A stretch of 64,000 nt of DNA from Sclerodactyla briareus (lineage: Eukaryota > Echinodermata > Holothuroidea > Dendrochirotida > Sclerodactylidae), in contig JAODTK010005905.1 of the NCBI GenBank assembly GCA_026419785.1, positions 408,001-472,000 on the forward strand. Direction: 5' to 3'. Below the pieces are notes generated by a model. It had not been told where the DNA came from, searched no databases, and saw only the letters and a list, made by a program, of their open reading frames with translations. Below, one piece after another: positions 2,270-52,620 of the stretch; position 1 is the stretch's first letter; each line of letters starts with the position of its first letter. Position numbers and translations under genes: made by a program.

Positions 2270-2390
2270 GCGCTGACTGCACTTACCTTTACCACGACCC
2301 TGTGAAGTATGCCACCTACCAGCGCTAGCTGAATCTGGCCATATTGTCCTGGCCTGAAAGGTGTCACCTCCGCCATTCCCAAATTTGCCA
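2270..2390 (+). repeat. Left inverted terminal repeat of copy A
   Basis: Reads cacttacctttaccac, then tatgccacctaccagc, then ctggcc and cctccgccattccca. This is the reverse complement, with a few indels, of 8371-8470. The outermost 'ccccctgttatggca' tip seen at the other ends is only weakly recognisable here, so the exact outer boundary is uncertain. Confidence 0.65.
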
Positions 2391-2879: not shown

Positions 2880-4590
2880 GAAAAAGCAGGGACAACTGCT
2901 CATAATACGCCCGAAAGCCATTGAAAGAGAGAACAGGAGCCATAGTAAAAATACGACTCAAAGTACGGCTCAGAAAAACCATGAGCCAACAAGCTCAGAA
3001 CACAGCCCAAGAAAGCCATGGAAAAGAGAGAACAGGGGCCAGGAAAAATCTCGGCAAAGAAAAAAAGGGGCAAGGAAACAGCCGTGAGAAACCCGAGAGC
3101 CGGGAGTCGAGCCAAGAAAAGAGCCGTGAGCCGGGAAAAAGTGAGCTGAGAAAAGAGCCGGGCAAAATGGGCCTTGGACAGGCCAGAGAACAAAAAAGCC
3201 GTGTGGCGGCCCAGAGGAAGCCGTGAGACCGGCCAGAGAGAGCCGCGAGGCCGGCCAGAAAGAGAGAGCCGCGAGGCCGGCCAGAAAGAGAGAGCCGGGG
3301 GAACGGCCAAAGAAACCCGTTGAACAGGCTGGTGAGCCGACCAGAAGAGCGCCGTGAACCCGACCAGAATCCCGGCCAGGAGCCAGGCCGGGAGATCCCC
3401 GGCAGAGGAGAGATCCGGAGAAAAGCCGGGGTAACAGTGGAGAATTCCCGACAGAGCCAGCAACCGGCATCGACCGAGCTCCGAATCAAGAGCCGTTGGC
3501 CGGGACGCGAGCATCATAACCGTGCAACAGCAGATTCCCATGGCCGGGAGCAGGCTATCCACCAGAAGACCCAGGGGGGTCGAAGAGGCCCATCCCGGAT
3601 AACTATTAGGATCAAGCCATGGAAATGGAAATCAACCCGGAGTTACGAGCTGGAGTCCAGCCATCTCTCAGACCCGTGGGTAAACGGGAATGCGGCCCCG
3701 CAGAGGCCGTGGCCACGGGAGGTGATCCACAAATACAAACCAGTGGGGATTTGGCTACACATGAGCCGATTTATGCCAAAGAAACTTCGAGGACATGGCA
3801 TATTACATTTGACCTGCCCGGGAGGGAAATCTTGTTTCAGCTTAGGCCGGAGATTGGTACGGAGAACCGGCGGATCGGGATCCGTAAGGAAAGAGTAACA
3901 ACAACGTGACTGTAATTGGTATAGGCCGAGAAACTGGACGCTGAAGAGCCACTGAGCCGCGTCCAGCGGATTCCTCAAACGGAAAAGCTGAGTTAAAACG
4001 GCTCTCCCCCGACTAACCCAGGGAGCCCGACTTTAACACACCCAGGAACAAAATAACCCGTCGCAGGTAAGCCGGGAGAGGCCGAGATGTGCCAGCATCG
4101 GCGAACAAGTCGAACCGATGGAAGCCGTGGCTCAGGACAGAGCCGGGAGAGTCAGCCGGACTTCGAGACGAGGCTTGGGGCTCTGAGCCGGAAGCCAGCC
4201 AGTGGAGAGCCAGGCCTAGAAAAGTACCGAGACAATGAACCGGAGTGGGGCCGGGAAGGCCAACGGCTACTAGGATCGATCCACACTGAGAAACGTGGGA
4301 ACAACCCCGTGGAAACTGCTCTCGACCACGGCGTTCGGTCCGTTCTCCCATCCCCCCCGGCCGGAGCCATGCATGGCCTTGGCCGACCCGACTCTCGGCA
4401 GCCGCCGAAGAAGCCGTGGCTCCAGGCAGAACCCAAGCCGGGACACACCCGCCCATGTCAGCCTGGACAAAACCGGGAAGGCGCGGCATAGCCCCGTCAA
4501 AGCAGGGGAAGCCGGTGCCCGACACCATTGCCTGGCCCGGCGCGGAGCCGTGATCGACCCACCGGCCATGGCTGATAGGGGTTAATCCAT
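2880..4590 (+). other. GC- and purine-rich charged block inside copy A (gag-like candidate)
   Basis: Abrupt GC- and purine-rich composition with repeated 'gagccg' and 'ccgggag' motifs. A 26-28 bp unit (gaggccggccagaaag) is repeated at about 3230-3300. Plus-strand open frames at 2921-3226, 3320-3898, 3619-3909 and 4087-4491 encode very basic or acidic low-complexity protein rich in R, E, K and S. Equally long minus-strand frames (for example 2900-3562, 4013-4618) come from the composition. No zinc knuckle or known domain is visible. A structural protein of the element in several decayed frames is possible, but this is inference. Confidence 0.3.
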
Positions 4591-4619
4591 ATCCGAGAAC
4601 TGGAATAACCGGCGACACC

Positions 4620-5540
4620 CCACCGGATGATGCAGTGGTTTTATTTCCTGTATATTGACTTCAGACCAAAAATAATTTAATTTGCCTACAAACAAACGTT
4701 TATCGGTATTGTATCCGTGCTTGTCAATACCACCCCGGAGTCTTAGTATTAATCATTTAGGAGCCACTTAAGACTCATAGGGCCTTGTAGAGACTTGGCC
4801 GTATTATCGCGATGATTTTTCAAACCAGTTGGGTCACAGTTTTCGCCCTTTATTAATTACCACCACCTACCCCGCGTAAGTTAACGGGCAGCCCTACTAC
4901 GTAAGCGACAATTCAAACCCGTGTTCGCTTTGATGTTTAGCCGTGTTATCTGGGTCTGTTTGTAATGCACAATAGAGGGACACCCTTGGGGATGGCCCTA
5001 TACAGATTACCGTAATGTGGGGGGAACTCCCGAAGTTACCAATGACTCTCGCTAGTAACAAAATTGCTACCAATCAGTGAAAGCTACGGAATTGTCGAGG
5101 TAATTAATAATGATCACGCAGTGGCGTGGCGGGCAGGGCTCTTTAGGGCTTTTTTTGCATGCAGCGGCGCTGGGTACTATCTACTAACTGCGGTGAATGT
5201 GATGTGGGAATATGGAAAGTAAACAGACAATCTTATATACACTTACTACTTATTTTGGCCTGAGACTGTCAACGTGAACCGAGACGCGAAAAAAGGAAAG
5301 CCAAACAATATAATGGGGTCTCCAGTGGTAGATATTTTCTGTCTCAGATTACATTATTAGTTAGACGGAGGCGAGGGTCCACGAGTTAGATCGGGTGCGG
5401 CAACCGGTTTCGCCGTGCCCGCGGGCATTAGAACACTTATTGTCTAGAAAAGTTATTTCCCTCCCGCCGACACTACAATATATTTGTATAATGTACAGAT
5501 GTATACATACAGTCAACATTTTGGAAAAAAAAAAAACAGC
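4620..5540. other. Interior of copy A without recognisable coding
   Basis: Composition returns to average and no long frame is present. A short poly-A-like tract near 5525 is followed by the segment (from 5544) that aligns with copy B at 17860. I see no gene. Confidence 0.4.
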
Positions 5541-8364: not shown

Positions 8365-8520
8365 CCAGAATTGGGAATGGCGGAGTGCCCACCTTTAGGC
8401 CAGACAATAATGCCAGATCTAGCTAGCTGGTAGGTGGCATATTGCACAGGTCAGTGGTAAAAGGTAAGTGCATTGCTTATAAAATGCCATAACAGGGGGT
8501 TTGGGGCAGTTAGGCATGTA
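8365..8520 (+). repeat. Right inverted terminal repeat of copy A
   Basis: Contains gggaatggcggagtgccc, tctagctagctggtaggtgg, cagtggtaaaaggtaagtgc and ccataacagggggtttgggg. It is complementary to both the left end (2280-2388) and the internal copy (7938-8010). Confidence 0.65.
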
Positions 8521-16800: not shown

Positions 16801-17229
16801 ATGAATCGTGCCAATTTATTGGGCAGATTGCACTTACTCTTCACCACCAACTTGTGCCGTGTGCCACCTACCAGCTAGCTAGATTGGCATAATTGTACAG
16901 CCCATAATTTCCCTATTTAGAGACCTGTTTTCGTCCCCAAGAAGATTTTGGCACCTTCATTATCATGATTAGGAATGTTGAGCATTTTGAGGAAGTGTTG
17001 TTTCGTTGGAATTTTTACTATCATTTTTCGGCACGATAGGGCCTAGCCTTTGCCTAACACAGTACTCAGTACTTGGTTGGACCTTTGTGGATTTCCACAG
17101 AACTACGGACATACTACAGTGTGTCAGACTTGAATTTGAGTTCAGTTTTGGGACCAAGTTTGTTTTTTCGGAGCTGACCCTCAGCTTGGCGAATACGCAG
17201 ATTGACATTTGCAAACAGTGCCTCTAGTA

Positions 17230-21090: not shown

Positions 21091-21259
21091 CAAATCCTGC
21101 AAAAAATGGTGGGACAAACAGTTGATTGACCAGCGTTAACCGCACAGCGTGTTAACATCCCCCGTCCCCCCTATTCAATGTTGTACTTCATAGCGCGCCT
21201 TGTAGCCAACATGAAGGGGGAGCGGGGTTTGTCCCCAGGTATTTGCCCCAAGAGGATTG
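21091..21259 (+). repeat. Left direct repeat unit of the Rep element (MITE-like)
   Basis: Starts CAAATCCTGCAAAAAATGG and ends AGAGGATTG, so the unit itself has inverted tips. Interior strings ggtgggacaaacag, gcgttaaccgc, cagcgtgttaa, tgttgtacttcatagcgcg and ttgt.gccaacat are shared, in order and orientation, with 24478-24622. Confidence 0.7.
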
Positions 21260-21277
21260 TTCGAATGCTGTACAAAG
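21260..21277 (+). repeat. Inner inverted repeat, left
   Basis: TTCGAATGCTGTACAAAG matches the reverse complement of 24460-24477 (TCTGAGTGCTGTACAAAG) at about 14-15 of 18 positions. It marks the edge of the region between the two direct repeats. Confidence 0.55.
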
Positions 21278-21900
21278 AGATCCTGGTTGATCGATGAAGT
21301 ACCGTGGCAGCTAGCTGAATAATGTACAGCTCGCTTTGTTTTAAAACAATGTATAAGTCAATGATTCGCTTTCGAAAGGTGTGGTTGGTCACATCACTAC
21401 AGGATGGGTTGTTATGTTGGAATGGACTAAAATTCGCTGAAATGCATGTGAATGTGATGGCTAATTGGCGCGTATTGTGTCAATTACTCCGCTGCGTACT
21501 GGAAAAAAATGCGCTGTGAGCAGGCAGTCGGAGTTATTTGTGGGACCATAGCCCTCACTTCCTGATTGAAAGAGCATTGGGGAGGGGATGGTGGGTGGGG
21601 GGGGGGAACCCGTGTGTGTTGGTCACCCGCGGGGTGTAACGCACCGCGTTGATGTGGAAGCTCGCATAATCCGGGGTCCACGGACGGCAGAGATCAAAGG
21701 CCGGCCCCCCAGCACGGCTAAATGCGCTCTATCCCATGATCACTCAAGTCATCATCAAGACGAGCCCAAGTCATGTGAATGTAATCAGAGGGGGCGGAGC
21801 GGCTATAGGAGATGGTCCCAGGTCATTCATCTATTGCATGCATCACTGAGCATGCCACTCGTGAGCGTCATTAGAATCTTGGCGCAGGCCATCAGTACAA
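21278..21900. other. Left arm of Rep element, no clear gene
   Basis: Contains a poly-G stretch near 21591-21606 and no frame I recognise. The first part of the Tc1-like relic may start within it (about 21900). Confidence 0.35.
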
Positions 21901-23004
21901 CACCCCGGCGTGATGGTGGTTCACACGGATCGCTGATGAGACTAGGGCCTACATTCGGTTGTTGAGGGCCCGGGAGAAGCTGAATTACAGGAGATGGCGA
22001 GTATAGTGGGTGTGTCCAAATCTTCTGTGTGGCGTATTTGCCGGAAGCGTTCAGCCAAACGGCGTTCGTGGGCCCCCTCGGCCGGACCAGAGGAACGACC
22101 TCGGAAGTCACTAATCGCCGACATAGCAGATTCCTACGCAAACTTACGCGTTTAATTGTTACTCGGGGAAATTTTCACACTGTTCTCTTACATCATGACT
22201 ATCTCGGATCGTCTTGGGCTTTCCAAACTGTGTCGCATTTCTTGAACCAACATGGGTATGATATCGACCAAGCACGCAAGAGGGGCTACTGTCTAATCCG
22301 CACTGAAACTAAAACTCACTGCGTCTGGATTTCGCCCGACCGTATCAAACGCGAGCACCCCCCTCTTTCTGGACGAGCGGACGTGGGGATTTTTAATTTC
22401 GATTCCCCCGCTTTGAACACAAAAACTACACCTAAGTCCATGCCCATGCATTACTGCACGTGTCTGGAGGAAAAAGAATGATAGGGTCTCCGGGCAGGGT
22501 GTAACCGCCAAGGGCTGAAGTGTGTACTGCGCAGGGTGGTCCATGTTCATGCTGCTATTTCGTATCGTAAAGGAGTGGTCATAGCTAAACCGGACACGTT
22601 CACGTCACACGGGGGGGGAGAAGCCGTGCAGTTCGCGAGGAAACATTTCATGGCCTTTTCAGGGGGCTGTTGATCGGCTGGGCAGCAGCGAGTATTCTTA
22701 CAAGATGGGGACCCTTCGTCAGAACTCCGACATATTGGAATGTGCCTGCTTCCACTTGGTGCAGTGTTCAGCATCCCCCTCGGAGCCCTGACTTGAACCC
22801 CATTGAGAATGTGTTAAACTGCTGGGAGACCAACTGCGGAGGGAGGCTTTGGATCGTAACATCGAAAGGGAGACGGTGTTTCAGTCATTTCCGACGACGG
22901 GTTTGTGGACGCTCGTCAGCATCCCCGTCTGCGTCATTGACAGAATAATAGAATCGATGCCAAAGCGTATCAACGCTATCATCCGACTCGAGGTGGGAGA
23001 CTGA
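21900..23004 (+). pseudogene. Tc1/mariner-like transposase relic
   Basis: DDE transposase remnants in at least three frames. The helix-turn-helix lies at 21979-22046: ELQEMASIVGVSKSSVWRI. A middle segment at about 22240-22360 (HGYDIDQARKRGY) is less certain. The catalytic-core signature SPDLNPIENVLNCWE lies at about 22785-22830. The C-terminal end is VIDRIIESMPKRINAI, with a stop near 23002. The family is usually about 340 residues in one frame, and here it is broken by several shifts. It lies next to, and opposite in orientation to, the Rep exon. It may have inserted into the Rep element or may have supplied its TA-flanked ends. Confidence 0.75.
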
Positions 23005-23221
23005 AGTATTAAAACCAAGTGAGGTATACCAAACTGATGCACCCAGCAGTCGTCATCCTTTCATGGTATTCTAAGTTAGAATGCTCGTTAAGCTATCCCT
23101 CCTCACCCAAAACAACCCCCCCAACCCCCTCAAAACCAAAAAACCCCCACCACCCCCACCCACACCTAAACTCAACCTCCGCCTCACTCCACCTCCCGTC
23201 ACTCGGTTATCCCCACTCCCT
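23005..23221. other. Pyrimidine-rich spacer between Tc1 relic and Rep exon
   Basis: Runs of C and A ('cccaccacccccaccc' around 23145-23162). On the minus strand this would be the start of the Rep intron. No helicase-like coding is visible here on either strand. Confidence 0.4.
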
Positions 23222-23857
23222 TCAAGTTACCTGGATCGCCTCTGCCACGCGTTTCGGGCCGCGGTTGTAGATGACACGACCAGGTCCGTCTTGCCCTCCT
23301 GGCTCTGGATTTCTGCGAAATGCGAGCAGCTTCTCCGTCCTGGTCTTAATTTTGCGCTCGCGCACGATTTCGCCCACGTCGCACACGCGGAGACGCTTCT
23401 TCTTGCGGCTAGGCCCTTCTGACTGGGAAGAGGTCCCAGCACGCGCGGCACTGGCTGCACTCGTGCGCGACTCAGACAGGTCGGGGTGCCCCGCACTCAT
23501 CCACACGCTCCCATCGGATTTAGTTACGTATTGAAACGCTGAATAGTAGTTCGTATGCGTGGCCGAAAAGTGAACAACCATCCCGTAGTCGGCCTGGAGG
23601 CGTTGTTTCACCCGGAGCCACCGATTGGCCTTCCCCAGCTTTATAGCCAGGTGGTAGTGGTGCCCACCGTCTTCATGCTCCTCCTGACAGCATGCCCACT
23701 GCACGACTTCCATGTCACTGGCTTCGAAAGCGGCCACTACTTTAGCAGCGATGTCCTCACGGGAGGCGCAGACAGCGGCGTCGGCTCGGCTGTAGGTTAT
23801 TAAATAGACCATGCGCGCCCGCCGTGCATCCAGCTCCTCTATGTTAGCCATGATCAC
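23222..23857 (-). CDS. HUH-type Rep endonuclease exon
   Basis: Rep proteins nick one DNA strand and stay bound to the 5' end through tyrosine, starting rolling-circle replication or transposition. The uninterrupted 211-codon frame has motif I-like MVYLITYSRAD (residues 16-26), the metal-binding HUH in GGHHYHLAIKL (H67, H69), and motif III YVTKSD with nucleophile Y110 and K113. A basic SRKKKRLR (150-157) could be a nuclear signal. The frame ends right after AEAIQ with CAG|GTAACT, a good splice donor at 23229-23230, so VT-stop is probably intronic. Full-length relatives in animals, as I recall, continue into an SF3-type helicase, which I do not find downstream. One nicking tyrosine distinguishes it from Helitrons. 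A Replitron-like or CRESS-Rep-derived transposon is more likely than a virus. Confidence 0.8.
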   Translation of the reverse strand: MIMANIEELDARRARMVYLITYSRADAAVCASREDIAAKVVAAFEASDMEVVQWACCQEEHEDGGHHYHLAIKLGKANRWLRVKQRLQADYGMVVHFSATHTNYYSAFQYVTKSDGSVWMSAGHPDLSESRTSAASAARAGTSSQSEGPSRKKKRLRVCDVGEIVRERKIKTRTEKLLAFRRNPEPGGQDGPGRVIYNRGPKRVAEAIQVT

Positions 23858-23935
23858 TGTGCGTTCCCTTAATGTATAACAGTCGACTCTCAGGTAGTAG
23901 GTAGGCGACGACTAGGTTAGTGATGGCTATGTAGC

Positions 23936-23952
23936 AGACCTATATATGCATC
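23936..23952 (-). promoter_or_regulatory. Possible TATA box for the Rep gene
   Basis: TATATATGCA at 23941-23950 reads GCATATATAGG on the minus strand, about 85 bases upstream of the Rep start codon. Spacing suits a core promoter with a short leader. No other support. Confidence 0.3.
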
Positions 23953-24071
23953 TGTAGGGGTCACAGAAGCCGCCTTCACTACTTGGAATGTGATCAATTC
24001 GGAGAATGCGCCGCGACAACGCACACATTGGCGCACATGTTCAAATCCTGCTCGTATGATTGGTGCTCGAC

Positions 24072-24118
24072 TTGAACAAGTTCAAAGAAGCGACCACGTG
24101 TGAACGTTACACACGTGG
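24072..24118. other. Tandem inverted repeats / hairpin upstream of Rep (candidate nick site)
   Basis: A perfect 9-bp stem CCACGTGTG (24094-24102) pairs with CACACGTGG (24110-24118) around the 7-nt loop AACGTTA. Next to it TTGAAC (24072-24077) and GTTCAA (24080-24085) form a second short inverted repeat. Rep nickases generally recognise hairpins beside their gene. The location, about 240 bases upstream of the Rep start and inside the element, fits such a site. Nicking position is inference. Confidence 0.55.
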
Positions 24119-24459
24119 CAGTGATCACATACTTTCTATTTATTATACGCGCGTTCTGACCACTTGCCTTCTTCTCAGGTCCACAGTAACGCCATTATGC
24201 GCATGCGCCGCATTCACCTCACGAAGCTGTTATGTACTCCTTTCCGTATACCCTTAGACTCTATATAATCATGTCATTATTACATGCCTGCCCTTCGTGT
24301 TGAATACATAATTCCTTTACTTGTTACAACCTTTCAATGATGAAATGGTGTGTGTTTCAATGCCATCTATCTGTCAAAAAGAACACGGCTGTTTGTTGCT
24401 TCTGACGTCCCTTCTTAATTCAAACCTACTGTTCCAAGAATTAAACCCCAGGAGCCGGA

Positions 24460-24477
24460 CTTTGTACAGCACTCAGA
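24460..24477 (-). repeat. Inner inverted repeat, right
   Basis: CTTTGTACAGCACTCAGA, the partner of 21260-21277, lies immediately before the second direct repeat unit. Confidence 0.55.
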
Positions 24478-24622
24478 CAATCCTCGCAAAAATGGTGGGA
24501 CAAACAGTGATTTGCAAGCGTTAACCGCGCAGCGTGTTACTGTTGTACTTCATAGCGCGACTTGTATGCCAACATTGAAGGGTGGAGCGGAGTTTTTTCC
24601 CAGGTATTTTTTGCGAGGATTG
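24478..24622 (+). repeat. Right direct repeat unit of the Rep element (MITE-like)
   Basis: CAATCCTCGCAAAAATGG to TTTTTTGCGAGGATTG is a 145-bp unit with inverted tips of about 15 bp. It lies in the same orientation as 21091-21259 and shares the central strings listed there. Confidence 0.7.
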
Positions 24623-24812
24623 TAGCTGGTAGGTGGCATCCTGCACAGGTTAGTGGTGAAAGGTAAGTGCATCGATTTAATTGCCATAACCGGGGTGTCG
24701 GCTACTATCTACTCCTACAATTTTTGGTGCACATGCACAATAGTCGTACCTTGGGTGTTCAGAAATTTTTTATTAAAATTCCCACTTATGCCCTAGGGCC
24801 AATTTTCATCAT

Positions 24813-26184: not shown

Positions 26185-26762
26185 TATTTATACTGTTCGG
26201 GGGTCAGGTCAAAGGTCAGTAGAGTAAAGTCTGGAAACTTGTGGGGACATGATAAGTAGAACGCTAGTCCTATCGAGTTGAAATTTGGCATACGGCTTCC
26301 CCATGAAGATACTAGAACCCTATCATCGTTGGTGTAGAGTGGGGTCCTTTTAGTCAAAAATGGGGAAATGTAAAGAGAACTGATATTCTGGCAAATTTTA
26401 GATTGTGGACACAACATTAACTCAACCCTGGATGGATTGAGCTCATAATGGATTGTGGCTCCCCCAAGATGAGTAAATACATGATCCCTATTTTGGGGTT
26501 CAGGTCAAAGTCTCGGGTCAGCAGAGGTCAAAGTTTTCTAAAGACCTAGTGGACACGATAAGTCTACAAAGCTTGGTTCGATCAAGCTGATGCATTAGGC
26601 ATACTGCCTTATTATGGGGAGTACAAAGAAACACTTTTTTTTCAGTAGAAAGTTTAGAAGGTTGTGAAACACTGATAATTTGGCCAATTTCATTTTGGGG
26701 GACACACCACTCAACCCCACCTGACAACTCGACCAACTGGAGGGATCCAAAAAAAAAAAAAA
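26185..26762 (+). repeat. Family B repeat, about two units
   Basis: Two successive units, each with a GGTCA block, 'acacgataagt', 'tcgatcaagctgatg'-like, 'tatggggagtac' and 'aatttggccaattt'. A perfect direct repeat AGGTCAAAGGTCA lies at 26206-26218. The last unit ends at an A-tract where the downstream duplication begins. Confidence 0.65.
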
Positions 26763-26971
26763 GCTCATACTTAGAATGTTGAGTACATGATTAAGTGTTT
26801 GCGTGGTCAGATCTGAGTCAGCAAATACCAAAATCTGGAAAAACCTTGGTGTTGAGGTAAGGTCAGGCCGGTGCTAGGTTGCCGCCAAACCGTCGATGCT
26901 GCTGATGCTGCTGATGAAGACCTGAAACGCAAAGTTACTGTACATTAATGGTAGGTAGTTCTGCCCTTGTT

Positions 26972-27864
26972 TGTCGCGCCTGAATGAAATTCAGGCGGAG
27001 ACTTAGTGATCACTATGGCGTGTGTATGTTGGTTTTGTCAGAAAAAGAAAAAAAAAAAAAAAAAACAATTTCTTGTTAGCAGGATATCTCTTGAACGGTA
27101 AGTCATTTCCTACAAAATGTTCAGCATCATGGTTGGTGAACACGATTGATTAGATTTTGGGCACAAAGTCACTAATCAAGTAAGGTAATTAGCCCATCTT
27201 ATGTAATTTATTGTTTAGCCTTTGTTAGCAAGATTACGGATGAAAGTATGTGCTATGACTTGGTTTGGCACATAGATGCGGGATATAAGGTAGATGAACT
27301 GATTCTATTTTCAGCGTAATTTTATGCAAGATTCAAAAGTTTGTCGGATTTTCAAGAAACTTGGTGAATATAGTCACCTTCAGTCCCAAAACTTTTTAAA
27401 AAGATTTGGTGTCAACGTACCTAATTCGCATAATTTATGCGAAATCTTTGAAGTTGCTTGGATTTTCATGAAACCTGGTGGGTATGGTTTACCTTGAGTT
27501 CTAAAAAAAATTATCATGGATTCAGGTTCACTGGATGTCAAACAAAGTGTCTAATTTGCATAATTTAGGCATAATTTTGAAGTTTGCCAGATTTTCGTGA
27601 AACTTGGTAAATTGCCTGAATTTACATAATTTAGGCAATTTTAGTCACATTTCCACAGGACTTTTACTCCTTCATTAGACCTTGGTTCCATAGTCCGTCC
27701 TTTTGAATTTGAAATTGGTCACTACTTAGTAGGCTGTTTCTGCTAAGTGCTAATACCGAAATCTTTAGCGACACATGGAATGCCTTGTAATTGTTTGCAT
27801 GGTGACTAATAGAAGAAACACTGATTGCGCAACCAGGCGAGACACGGGGGGCGATCGCCTTGTC
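26972..27864 (+). mobile_element. Family A element in duplication copy 1
   Basis: Starts TGTCGCGCCTGAATGAAATT and ends CAGGCGAGACA (27834-27844), then gggggGCGATCGCcttgtc. The interior has repeated 'catgaaacctggtgg', 'ctaatttgcataattta' and 'tttccacaggactttt'. No transposase frame. Probably a non-autonomous DNA transposon of about 0.9 kb. Confidence 0.65.
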
Positions 27865-28303
27865 TGATGAAGGAGCTGACATGCTCAGTCTCCATGTTTG
27901 CAAAGTTCACATTTATCACTTTTCCAATGATATTACCCTAATGGTTGAAACCCTGTAAGTGTAAGTCGCTGCCATGTTAGTCATTATCAACTGGGTAGGG
28001 TGAAATAATGGTAACAAAGCTTCTTGTTGAAGGACACACCAGAAAAGTGGATTAGTTCTCAACTGGAATCAAGGTCCACAATCTGTTGATTTATGGTCTG
28101 CTGATGCCAACTGTAGTTTGCAACCTTTTCCCAGAATTCATTTGTAAAGGAAAAGAAGATTTCCATCATGTGTATGGATTGACCCTATATTTACTTTCAT
28201 ATAGGTATAAGGTCATGTCAATGTTCTTACAAACCATTCTATGTGACATGACCTTGAATCTTAAAACTAGACGTTATCCCTACTGCCTTTTTCTCTATAA
28301 CAG

Positions 28304-28476
28304 GTAAAGTTGACACATGTTGTTGTATGGGCACTGGATATAGTGACATGCTGTCAAGGTCAGAGTGTCCTGTAGGTGGAGACTGCTATGTGGTTTCAGG
28401 GGCCAAGATGCCACACTTCTGGTCTGGCATTGGAGCTCCAAGGTGCACTGGATCCTCGGTGACAACCATGTGCAAG
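28304..28476 (+). CDS. Neurobeachin/LRBA WD40 exon, copy 1
   Basis: The acceptor is ctctataacag and the donor is caag|gtatgt. In shifting frames it reads GHWDIVTC, SRSECPVGGDCYVVSGAK, then DATLLVWHWSSKVHWILGDN. This is the WD40 blade containing 'GHWD.VTCL.RSE...GGDCY..SG..DATLL.W.W' in this family. Three one-base deletions are needed to join the frames, and two of them are shared with the second copy. Either copy could be the one spliced. Confidence 0.85.
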
Positions 28477-29486
28477 GTATGTTTATATCAGTGTCTGTAC
28501 TATGTGCATCAGTGATGAAGACCACTCATGGGCTTGGGGTAGAAGAAATCCCAAGTAATGGAAATCCTTACCCATGACTAAAGTGGTGACTACAAGACTA
28601 AAAATACATATTCTCACCTATCTACCTTCAGTGATGTAGGCTTGTTTCCTCTACCCATGACGATGCTCCCAGTAAATTGATGGAATAATGTCCAGGTTTA
28701 TTAGCTTGATTGGTAAAACTAACAGTTTGAGATTTGGAGATGTTGAATTTGAATCTATTCAAAGCCGAATTTTGGGGCTTCTGGCAACCTACTAGACAAG
28801 ACACATTCTCTTCATTCATTGTCCCACGCTACTTATGTAGAAGTGGGTTGCTTGTTGTATTGGTGTTAACAAACTTAACATTAGTGATTGCCAATGTGGC
28901 TGTCCAATTAGAAAGTTATGTAACAAGTCAGGTTCCTGGCCTTACCTGGGAACCTGGAAAAATTTGAATCCTGGAAAGTCATGGAATTTGGGCAAAATGC
29001 TTCCAAATCCTGGAAAAAATCATGGGATTTGATTGGCCAAAGACTTAATTGACTATGGTGGCGTTTTTGGGATGCTTAGATGGTTCAGTACTACACTGTT
29101 CTTTCGTGTGGACTGGAAATAAGAAATCGTTTTCATCCTGGATTTTGAAATTTCATCATGAAAAAATCATGGAATTTTAGTCTCTTGGAATGATGGGAAC
29201 ACTGCAAGTAACACTATGGTATCGTGTAAATTTACACAATGAAAGTACAGTTTTTTATTCCTCTGACAAACTCGACCCCACCTGAGGGATCAAGCTCATA
29301 CTTAGAATGTTGAGTACATGATTAATAGTGTTTGGTGGTCAGATTGATGTCAGCAAATACCAAAATCTGGAAACCTTGGTTGACGGTAAGTGTCAGGCCG
29401 GCTGCTAGGTGCAGCCAACCTGATGCTGCTGCTGAAGACCTGACATGCACAGTAACATGTAAGGAAGTAGGTAGTTCTGCCCTGTT

Positions 29487-30355
29487 TGTCTCGCCTGAAT
29501 GAAATTCAGGAGGAGACTTAGTGATCACTATTGCGTGTGGTAGGGTTGTGTTTGTCACAATTTCTTGTTAGCAGGATATCTCTTGAACGGTAAGTGCTTC
29601 CTACAAAAATTGTTCGCATCAGGGTTGGGTGAACACGATTGATTAGATTTTGGGCACAAAGTCACTAATCAAGTAAGGTAATTAGCCCATCTTATGTAAT
29701 TTATTGTTTAGCCTTGTTAGCAAGATTACGGATGAAAGTATGTGCTATGACTTGGTTTGGCACATAGATGCGGGATATAAGGTAGATGAACTGATTCTAT
29801 TTTCAGCGTAATTTTATGCAAGATTCAAAAGTTTGTCGGATTTTCAAGAAACTTGGTGAATATAGTCACCTTCAGTCCCAAAACTTTTTAAAAAGATTTG
29901 GTGTCAACGTACCTAATTCGCATAATTTATGCGAAATCTTTGAAGTTGCTTGGATTCTCATGAAACCTGGTGGGTATGGTTTACCTTGAGTTCTAAAAAA
30001 AATTATCATGGATTCAGGTTCACTGGATGTCAAACAAAGTGTCTAATTTGCATAATTTATGCAAATTTTGAAGTTTGCCAGATTTTCGTGAAACTTGGTA
30101 AATTGCCTGAATTTACATAATTTAGGCAATTTTAGTCACATTTCCACAGGACTTTTACTCCTTCAGAGACATTGTCAATAGTCCGTCCTTTTGAATTTGA
30201 AATTGGTCACTGATTAGTAGTCCTGTGTTTCTGTTAAATGCTAATACCGAAATCTTTAGCGACACATGGAATGCCTTGTAATTGTTTGCATGGTGACTAA
30301 TAGAAGAAACACTGATTGCGCAACCAGGCGAGACACGGGGGGCGATCGCCTTGTC
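29487..30355 (+). mobile_element. Family A element in duplication copy 2
   Basis: Perfect tips TGTCTCGCCTG (29487-29497) and CAGGCGAGACA (from about 30325), then GCGATCGC. This copy shows the family ends best. An AATTTGCATAA/TTTATGCAAATT near-palindrome lies at 30045-30067. Confidence 0.7.
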
Positions 30356-30794
30356 TGATGAAGGAGCTGACATGCTCAGTCTCCATGTTTGCAAAGTTCA
30401 CATTTATCACTTTTCCAATGATATTACCCTAATGGTTGAAACCCTGTAAGTGTAAGTCGCTGCCATGTTAGTCATTATCAACTGGGTAGGGTGAAATAAT
30501 GGTAACAAAGCTTCTTGTTGAAGGACACACCAGAAAAGTGGATTAGTTCTCAACTGGAATCAAGGTCCACAATCTGTTGATTTATGGTCTGCTGATGCCA
30601 ACTGTAGTTTGCAACCTTTTCCCAGAATTCATTTGTAAAGGAAAAGAAGATTTCCATCATGTGTATGGATTGACCCTATATTTACTTTCATATAGTCATA
30701 AGGTCATGTCAATGTTCTTACAAACCATTCTATGTGACATGACCTTGAATCTTAAAACTAGACGTTATCCCTACTGCCTTTTTCTCTATAACAG

Positions 30795-30967
30795 GTAAAG
30801 TGGACACCGGGTGTGTATGGTCACTGGGATATAGTGACATGCTGTCAAGGTCAGAGTGTCCTGTAGGTGGAGACTGCTATGTGGTTTCAGGGGCCAAGAT
30901 GCCACACTTCTGGTCTGGCATTGGAGCTCCAAGGTGCACTGGATCCTCGGTGACAACCATGTGCAAG
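30795..30967 (+). CDS. Neurobeachin/LRBA WD40 exon, copy 2
   Basis: Same exon as 28304-28476, offset by 2491, with the same splice sites. Its start reads better (GGTCACTGGGATATAGTGAC gives GHWDIVT). It shares with copy 1 the missing base before TCAAGGTCAGAG and the missing base in GCCAAGATGCC (GAK versus the expected GAKD). Two adjacent copies would insert an extra WD40 blade or allow mutually exclusive use, if real. Confidence 0.8.
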
Positions 30968-31790
30968 GTATGTTTATATCAGTGTCTGTACTATGTGCAT
31001 CAGTGATGAAGACCACTCATGGGCTTGGGGTAGAAAGATTCCCACAGTAATGGAAATCCTTACCCATGACTAAAGTGGTGACTACAAGACTAAAAATACA
31101 TATTCTCACCTATCTACCTTCAGTGATGTAGGCTTGTTTCCTCTACCCATGACGATGCTCCCCGTATTGAGGATTGGGGGGGTTGTGTTGGAATAATGTC
31201 AGGTTTAGAGCTTGATTGGTAAAACTAACAGTTTGAGATTTGGAGATGTTGAATTTGAATCTATTCAAAGCCGAATTTTGGGGCTTCTGGCAACCTACTA
31301 GACAAGACACATTCTCTTCATTCATTGTCCCACGCTACTTATGTAGAAGTGGGTTGCTTGTTGTATTGGTGTTAACAAACTTAACATTAGTGATTGCCAA
31401 TGTGGCTGTCCAATTAGAAAGTTATGTAACAAGTCAGGTTCCTGGCCTTACCTGGGAAACCTGGAAAAAATTTGAATCCTGGGAAAGTCATGGAATTTGA
31501 GGCAAATGATTCAAATCCTGGAAAAAATCATGGGATTTGATTGGCCAAAGACTTAATTGACTATGGTGGCGTTTTTGGGATGCTTAGATGGTTCAGTACT
31601 ACACTGTTCTTTCGTGTGGACTGGAAATAAGAAATCGTTTTCATCCTGGGATTTTGAATTTCATCATGAAAAAATCATGGAATTTTAGTCTCTTGGAATG
31701 ATGGGAACACTGCAAGTAACACTATGGTATCGTGTAAATTTACACAATGAAAGTACAGTTTTTTATTCCTCTGACAAACTCGACCCCACC

Positions 31791-32260
31791 TTCATGGATG
31801 AAGCTCATACTTGGTATGTGTGTTCCCCATGAAGAGTACATGAACCCTATTGTTTTGGGGTCATGTAAGGGTCATTTGAGGTCACCAGAGGTCAAAGTCT
31901 GAAAACCTTGTAAACACAATAGGTCCAGAATGGTTTGTCCGATCAAGCTTGAATCATGTGTATAGCTTTCTTATGGGGAGTACAGGAACACTAATTGTTT
32001 TTGGTTCAGGTTGGAGGTGAATTTTGGTCGAAAATAGGAAAAATGTGTGAAAAATCAATATTTTGGCCAATTTTGGCTTGTAAACATGATAACTCGACCC
32101 CACCTTCATGGATGAAGCTCATACTTGGTATGCAAGTTGCCCATGATGAATAAACGAACCCTATCACTTTTAGTCAGGTCAAAGGTCAACAGAGGTCAAA
32201 GTCTGAAAATGCTTGTAAATGGTATGATCAGGTTGGAATTAGTTGTAAGTCCTTCATGGA
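31791..32260 (+). repeat. Family B repeat, about 1.4 units
   Basis: Successive 'cgaccccaccttcatggatg', 'aagctcatacttgg', GGTCA block, 'gtccagaatggtttgtccga', 'ttatggggagtacaggaaca', 'aatattttggccaatttt', then the next 'ctcgaccccaccttcatgg'. AGGTCAAAGGTCA at 32176-32188. Unit length about 310 bp. Confidence 0.75.
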
Positions 32261-50929: not shown

Positions 50930-52620
50930 AAATTCTAATGCAACTCTCTACCAGTGTGTGAATGTGCAGGTCCTGGCCCTAGACTTTTTTGGCACATATT
51001 TAAAAAGGTAGGTATTTGAAACAGTCGTTGCTGAAGCAAATGACTATATCTAATGCACTCTCTTATACCAGTGTATCATGCTACAGTCTGGACCTATACT
51101 TGGGCCGTGATAAAAGGAGTATTGAACAGGTGTGACAGGTCCAAATGATATAAGCTAATGCATCTCTACCATTGTGTGATGCTGCAGAGTCGGCCCCGTC
51201 TTTTCTGTTTTGTCTGCCACCCCCTGTATTGCCCCATGATAAAAGGTAGATATTGAACAGGTGGTGAAGGTCACATGACTATAATCTATGCAAGCTTCTC
51301 TACCAGTGTATCATGCCTACAGTCCTGGCCCTATATTGCCCATTGATAAAAGGTAGGTATGAACAGTGTGAAGTCACATGACTATAATCTAATGGCCCTC
51401 TATCAACTTCCAGTCGTTATCATGTCTACAATGTCTGGCCTCCTATATACTTGGTGCCCATGATAAAGTAGAAAGTTCAACAGGTAGGGAGGTTTACAGG
51501 TCACATGGCCATAATCTAATGCACTCCTCTCACGCAGTGTGTAAAGCTGCGTCCTGGCCTATACTTGGCCCATAATAAAAGGTAGGTATTTGAACGGTGT
51601 GAAGGTCACATGAACTATAATCTCATGCACTCTATACCATTGTATCAAGCTACAGTCCTGGCCCTATACTTAGCCCATGATAAAAGGTAGGAAGTTGAAC
51701 AGGTATGGAGGTTTACAGGTCACATGACCATAATCTAATGCACTCTATACTCATTGTGTGCATGCTACAGTCCTGGGCCTATCTTGGCCCATGATAAAAG
51801 GTAGGTATTTTAAGCAGGTGTGGAGGTTTGCATGTCACATGACTATAATCTACTGCACTCTATACCATGTTTGATGCTACAGTCCTGCCCTAGACTTGGC
51901 CCATGATAAAAGGTAGGTATTTGAACAGGTTTGAAGGTCACAGACTAAAATCTAATGCACTCTATATACCAGTGTATCATGCTACAGTCCTGGCCCCATA
52001 CTTGGCCCTGATAAAAGGTAGGTATTTGAACAGGTGTGAAGGTCACATGACTATCTTCTAATGCCTCTATACCAGTGTATCATGCTACAGCCTCGGCCCT
52101 ATACTTGCCCGTGATAAAAGGTAGGTATTTAACAGGTGTGAGGCACATGATATATTCTACTGCACTCTATACCAGTTATCATGCTACGTCCTGGGCCTAT
52201 CTTGGCCCATGATAAAAGGTAGGTATTTGAACAGGTTTGAAAGGTCACATTACTATAATCTAATGCACTCTATACCAGTGTATCATGCTACAAGTCCTGG
52301 GCCTATCTTGGCCCATGATAAAGTAGGTCTTTTGACAGGTGTGAAGGTCCACATGACGATAATCTACTGCACTCGTCTCTACCATTGTGTGATGCTGCAG
52401 TCCTGGCCCTATACTTGGCCCATGATAAAAGGTAGTATTTGAACAGGTGTGAAGGTTCCCATGACTATAATCTAATGCATCCTCTATACTCATGTATCAT
52501 GTCCTGGCCATACGACCTTGGTCCACGATGAGAGGGTGTATAGATTCAAAATGGTTGAACTGGTGGTGCGTCACATGACCCATAACCTAATAGCACTTCT
52601 TAACAAGTGTCCGAAATGCT
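50930..52620 (+). repeat. Minisatellite, period about 107 bp, around 15 units
   Basis: Repeating unit with ordered segments 'cccatgataaaaggtaggta', 'tttgaacaggtgtgaaggtc', 'acatgactataatctaatgc', 'actctataccagtgtatcat', 'gctacagtcctggcccta'. Unit lengths vary by a few bases through indels. The first and last units are the most diverged. Open frames on both strands are fortuitous. Confidence 0.9.

Follow-up and report, generated by a model that had tools for sequence, protein, structure and literature searches.

To our knowledge, HUH enzymes are used by few known groups of eukaryotic transposons. Helitrons combine a two-tyrosine HUH nuclease with a Pif1 helicase and insert between A and T, and the transposases of Replitrons have an OTU domain. 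Parvoviruses and AAV carry T-shaped terminal palindromes, and a 2-bp TA duplication is the mark of Tc1/mariner elements. Replitrons have direct terminal repeats of 5-11 bp and target duplications of 2-8 bp, according to a review (PMC10741241). Transposons resembling single-stranded DNA viruses were reported from a fungus and lower animals by Liu et al. 2011, who describe parvovirus-like repeats in the acorn worm and geminivirus-like repeats in the fungus; such transposons are therefore already a known kind (PMC3198968).

Here we describe an HUH Rep exon in a stretch of 64,000 nucleotides from Sclerodactyla briareus, which we call the window throughout. The exon lies within an insertion that we interpret, with moderate confidence and from sequence comparison, as a broken copy of a Rep transposon, one of a family that would move into CTAG by rolling-circle replication through a circular or single-stranded intermediate. 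What remains of the family layout in the window copy is the HUH exon, the region upstream of it and a terminal unit at either end, arranged as follows (locus L007 is an 81% paralogue in the same genome).

21091-24622, no strand: whole insertion, about 3.53 kb, in the CTAG of a dispersed repeat, with flanks ...GGCTA and TAGCTGG... and empty copies of the repeat for comparison
21091-21260, plus strand: left terminal unit, whose inverted ends read CAAATCCTGC...GAGGATTG, single-stranded DNA fold z -3.6
21261-21277, plus strand: inner flank D, 17 nt, TCGAATGCTGTACAAAG, an imperfect inverted copy of 24460-24476
23222-23851, minus strand: Rep exon 1, the HUH nuclease, identified by frame, motifs, profile match and fold model
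23940-23949, minus strand: TATA-like GCATATATAG, lying some 90 nt before the ATG, within a block identical in L007
23988-24130, no strand: inverted repeats, one nested in another, ahead of Rep exon 1, with an outer stem of 9 bp and inner hairpins at 24035-24081 and 24094-24118
24460-24476, plus strand: inner flank D', CTTTGTACAGCACTCAG
24477-24622, plus strand: right terminal unit, oriented as the left one, its ends complementary over 16 nt in full, DNA fold z -3.8

The open frame spans 209 codons (630 nt) and is a member of the HUH endonuclease superfamily, Rep type. Its HUH motif (H65-Y66-H67) is followed downstream by a single candidate tyrosine in a YxxK arrangement (Y108-V-T-K111), and a basic stretch begins at K150. 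A Pfam profile search matched the exon to PF23343 with an E value of 4.4e-4, below the gathering threshold. The structure model has low confidence, with pLDDT below 50 around the candidate tyrosine; comparison of this model with the PDB using VIA-align nevertheless gave eight best rows that are all Rep nuclease domains. The closest folds are those of CRESS Reps (geminivirus, Vientovirus and circovirus), with AAV2 Rep also among the matches. The initial annotation had described an uninterrupted exon of the HUH Rep type, and the motifs, the profile search and the structure prediction bear this out. Searches of the exon against PHROGs, NCBIfam and, by phmmer, the PDB yielded nothing useful. Upstream of the frame, GCATATATAG is a plausible promoter of the Rep exon, as judged from its sequence. 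The nested inverted repeats at 23988-24130 show a weak excess of stability (z -1.96); they could form a three-armed fold and are partly retained in L007.

A search of the 319-Mb assembly with the HUH exon recovered the window copy and at least three other loci, L007 (contig C2786), L008 (C2428) and L009 (C243), each of which contains stops or frame breaks. A count of near-identical copies had been suggested as a check; L007 matches the window at 81% over 23097-24624, up to the end of the right unit, and contains both units. L008 matches at 42% in the HUH part. Its HUH piece reaches PF23343 at an E value of only 0.086, and K111 is not retained. Here, the HUH and helicase-like blocks lie between direct units (1214-1441 and 4977-5192), whose outer ends are CTACAATCCCCGCC and GGCGGGGATTGTAG, also written CTACAATCC and GGATTGTAG. 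The L008 order of HUH and helicase recurs in L053, where the units are partial, so that two diverged subfamilies have Rep flanked by ends of this kind. Three loci on one 44-kb contig (L053, L054 and L055) carry the unit in the opposite orientation with respect to Rep when set against L008; contig G000:C243, of 44 kb, has three decayed Rep copies, all of them turned in this way. Beside the Rep element of L008 lies a short segment (L008:5475-5658) with ends CTACAATCCCC...GGATTATAG, perhaps a small solo relative.

The window frame is probably only the first exon of a longer gene. A candidate splice donor, CAG/GTAACT, is located at the end of the window exon (GT at 23230-23229), and donor-like sites are present in L007 (CAG/GTAAAT) and L008 (CAG/GTGATT). 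A helicase-like block lies downstream of the HUH part in L007, L008, L009 and L053, and in all three loci inspected for it (L008, L009 and L053) this exon-2 block has an acceptor-like CAG just ahead of it. Judging from these sequences, a spliceosomal intron probably separates the HUH and helicase-like exons. The L008 block contains a Walker A motif (PANCGKT) and a Walker B motif (LFLDDF), and L009 retains remnants of a block of this type. A 91-aa piece of the L008 helicase has eight matches in the genome, counting L008 itself and L007. The L007 relic (3798-3535, E 3e-8, or 1.4e-5 in the whole-genome search) follows the L007 HUH exon on the same strand, giving the order HUH exon, then helicase relic. 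Two of the four helicase pieces tested matched Parvo_NS1, both weakly (E 0.15 and 0.12); for the L053 piece an unrelated family outscores Parvo_NS1 (E 0.029), and the pieces of L051 and L052 have no profile match. A phmmer search of the L008 piece against the PDB gave one chance match only (E 0.65). Within the window, no Walker A motif was found on the exon strand, and the L008 piece matched nothing better than E 1.1.

The units that bound the insertion are a property of the family. Used as a query, the unit has at least 25 matches on at least 17 contigs; those 17 were all inspected and comprise the window, L007 and 15 more. Units measure 146-170 nt in the window, where they are direct, and about 150-230 nt across the family. 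Each unit has inverted ends of its own. Wherever a locus has more than one unit, the units are direct (14 of 14: the window, L007, L008, L035-L040, L042, L044 and L046-L048). Folded as single-stranded DNA, 22 of 27 units have z below -2, with a mean of -4.2 (the eight L035 units were left out of this set), and RNAalifold on a gappy alignment of 33 units gave four pairs only and no covariation. Flank D is present at both inner sides of the window copy; of the eight non-autonomous loci inspected, seven likewise have it twice and the eighth, L048, has it on one side only; D and D' were not found in L008 and L053. An LTR retroelement was considered and dropped, as the unit ends are CA...TG and D and D' are mutually inverted.

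The boundaries of the insertion can be read against uninterrupted copies of the repeat that it occupies. The filled site has the form GCTA-element-TAGC, and all three uninterrupted copies in the window read GCTAGC.

8371-8498, plus strand: empty copy of the flanking repeat, GCTAGC
2278-2382, minus strand: second empty copy, GCTAGC, with 2 extra nt adjoining
16829-16896, minus strand: third empty copy, shorter, GCTAGC

A second, different flanking repeat surrounds the solo unit L041, and here CTAG is present in all eight of the empty copies read, out of 37 further matches. L039, which holds several units, has similar flanks at both sides. Across loci, inspection by eye places CTA directly before the unit in 13 of 15 and TAG directly after it in 12 of 15. 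As CTAG is its own reverse complement, duplication of TA and blunt insertion between CT and AG cannot be told apart. Flanks of CTA...TAG around the element, together with empty sites reading CTAG, are explained equally well by a 2-bp TA duplication and by blunt insertion of an element whose first letter is A and whose last is T. The A and T adjoining the unit are also retained at most inner junctions.

A non-autonomous family shares these units. Its layout is a unit of about 195 nt, some 1.07 kb of other sequence and a further unit, giving a repeat of about 1.27 kb. Monomers are found at seven loci (L036, L038, L042, L044, L046, L047 and L048), and tandem arrays in which neighbours share single units at four: L035 with eight, L037 and L039 with three each, and L040 with four, one of them partial. 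Solo units make up L041, L043, L045 and L049. Inner junctions are mostly GGACAATCC...GGATTGTCC and outer ends CTACAATCC...GGATTGTAG. In the L036 element the two longest frames have 99 and 100 codons. At L035 (G000:C2742:500-10400), 9.9 kb of a 12.8-kb contig is mostly an array of the 1.27-kb repeat.

These arrangements suggest how the family could move. Using Y108, Rep would nick the unit in single-stranded form and remain on the 5' end, and Rep together with its helicase would then peel off one strand by rolling-circle replication. The resulting circular or multimeric form would contain the unit with D on both sides, as in the tandem arrays. Cuts at the two outer boundaries of the unit, followed by insertion into CTAG, could leave a full unit at each end, and the non-autonomous repeats of about 1.27 kb, having the units and D in common with the Rep elements, would be mobilised in trans. 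The sequences show the layout of the gene, the ends, the target, and the tandem and solo forms; the role of Rep as mover, like the nicking, the circle and the trans-mobilisation, we infer from them. Against this scheme, unequal recombination between direct repeats is another source of tandem arrays and solo units; such recombination between direct units can account for both, whether a Rep or a DDE enzyme is the mover.

A Tc1-like DDE mover has to be weighed, since a target of CTAG is equally what duplication of TA would give. CAATCC...GGATTG would then be the terminal inverted repeats of a Tc1/mariner-type transposon, the TA of CTAG would be duplicated, the solo units would be MITEs and Rep a passenger. 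The CTA...TAG flanks with their CTAG empty sites agree with this, as do the four solo units, which have these same ends, and the window copy itself contains a Tc1-like relic within the 1.8 kb between D and 23097 that has no match in L007.

21984-22945, plus strand: Tc1-like DDE transposase relic, middle part of the insertion, absent from the L007 match

The relic was matched by DDE_3 over 22589-22945 with an E value of 0.009, below gathering; 21984-22478 has no Pfam match and is Tc1-like by eye. DDE_3 was the sole match in a Pfam scan of ten window frames, two of them inside the insertion. Against a DDE mover, no DDE frame was noticed incidentally in L007 or L008, and the gene seen between units is Rep, in two diverged subfamilies. 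TA duplication leaves the A and T kept at most inner junctions unexplained, and DDE elements have no need of direct units or of inverted D and D'. We regard a DDE mover as unlikely but as the main rival.

Germline-integrated remnants of a CRESS- or parvovirus-like single-stranded DNA virus, with terminal palindromes that served as origins or hairpin ends and were later copied with the genome, seem to us improbable. The nearest folds are those of CRESS and AAV Reps, the helicase has its weak likeness to Parvo_NS1, the ends fold strongly, and the acorn worm and fungus repeats are published precedents (PMC3198968). However, scans of viral contigs, one with the HUH exon and one with the helicase piece, found no relatives, and the HUH exon had none in a phage collection either. 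Exact insertion into CTAG and the existence of non-autonomous derivatives are transposon-like, and the units are direct rather than inverted at every multi-unit locus, for which reason a strict parvovirus flip/flop arrangement was also set aside, with the turned units of L053, L054 and L055, all on one contig, as observations on the other side.

The window copy itself is damaged. Its helicase exon was not found and unrelated DNA stands in its place, so this copy is probably not autonomous. The initial annotation took the preserved frame as a sign of recent activity or selection. We could not sustain this claim: the helicase exon is absent, 1.8 kb of DNA unrelated to L007 stands in its place, the three other HUH loci listed are interrupted, and codon positions show no bias. 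Exon differences from L007 number 13, 18 and 14 at the three codon positions, which is about equal, and L007 indels are similarly dense in the exon (58 per kb) and in the upstream part (66 per kb). Selection on the Rep frame was accordingly dropped as a conclusion from the L007 comparison, and one intact 630-nt frame is a weak sign of it. Over about 1.2 kb, L007:4334-5593 differs from the window by 75 indels and by 98 base changes, of which 34 are transitions and 64 transversions, an unusual spectrum that is possibly due to assembly error. Given the many 1-2-nt indels and the excess of transversions, the frame breaks in L007 may reflect either decay or assembly error.

A host gene derived from Rep and selected for its nuclease or DNA-binding domain is, on these data, very unlikely. 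The window frame is open where the three other listed HUH loci are interrupted, and the TATA-like block is identical in the window and L007; against this, the frame sits within an insertion bounded by terminal units, is without its helicase exon and shows no codon-position bias relative to L007. A meaningless chance frame can be dismissed almost outright, for although the length of the frame by itself is not unusual for the local base composition, it has a profile match and a fold match, and its coding sequence recurs at three other loci.

Elsewhere in the window, repeats are also rich in indels. A 2.5-kb tandem duplication at 26761-31819 is 94% identical by blastn and contains 48 indels, half of them of 1 nt, with transversions exceeding transitions. 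A tandem repeat of 103 nt, in about 12 copies and with a higher period of 219 nt, occupies 51222-52501. In the G+C-rich stretch at 2900-4660, both strands contain overlapping frames longer than 200 codons, and a scan of two of these frames gave no Pfam match. A tRNA search of the window gave nothing useful.

Returning to the Rep transposon that we favour, we tentatively propose, as a possibility somewhat short of an even chance, that the family represents a separate and undescribed group of eukaryotic Rep transposons. Such a group would be defined by a two-exon initiator joining HUH and SF3 parts, by direct units with palindromic ends that act as the origin in a circle, by insertion into CTAG without duplication, and by trans-mobilised 1.27-kb derivatives that build arrays. 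The literature searched, which misses most subscription journals, gave us no account of an element built in this way. A Rep transposon that combines a CRESS/parvovirus-like enzyme with folding ends and a defined target would connect the repeats of genomes with single-stranded DNA viruses. Its tandem arrays would also allow a test of how rolling-circle replication might give rise to satellite-like DNA. It is the family that is of value here, the window copy being a damaged member of it.

How the family compares with known systems can be stated feature by feature. The initial annotation had placed the exon with Replitron-like or CRESS-Rep-derived transposons. Like Replitrons, the element has an HUH endonuclease in a eukaryotic transposon and direct terminal repeats, and a 2-bp duplication is possible; Replitron repeats, however, are 5-11 bp according to the review (PMC10741241), whereas the units here are about 150-200 nt, and relatives here carry a helicase-like exon. 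Unit length and the SF3-like helicase exon thus count against the Replitron half of that placement, and the element is not classed as a Replitron, on repeat length, while the CRESS half is supported by the nearest folds and by the position of the exon inside a transposable element. With Helitrons the element shares an HUH enzyme and a helicase, and it too may insert without duplicating its target. It differs in having one candidate tyrosine, an SF3-like helicase in relatives, a CTAG target and long terminal units, and it is not classed as a Helitron, on tyrosine number, helicase type and target. The single tyrosine had already been offered as the feature separating this exon from Helitrons; it does set the exon apart, but the helicase type of the relatives is the stronger difference.

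Tc1/mariner elements and MITEs share with the family a TA within the target, inverted ends and, in the window copy, a Tc1-like relic, and differ from it in that the terminal units here are long and direct and no recurring DDE gene was noticed. Closer in gene content is the geminivirus-like transposon of Tuber melanosporum, a repetitive element that has a Rep-like gene and inverted ends and whose target shows no obvious duplication, although its inverted repeats are 37 bp and it has two transposase frames (PMC3198968). Parvoviruses and AAV (Rep68/NS1) share the HUH and SF3-like parts and terminal units that fold with inner arms, but here the units are direct in each element, one unit is common to solo and tandem forms, and sequence similarity is low. 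CRESS-DNA virus Reps share the HUH nuclease with its single candidate tyrosine and, in the relatives described here, a helicase-like part behind it; the present element differs in being chromosomal, in its long terminal repeats and CTAG target, and in a gene split by a probable intron. Taken on its sequence features, the element would work like a CRESS or parvovirus Rep replicon turned transposon.
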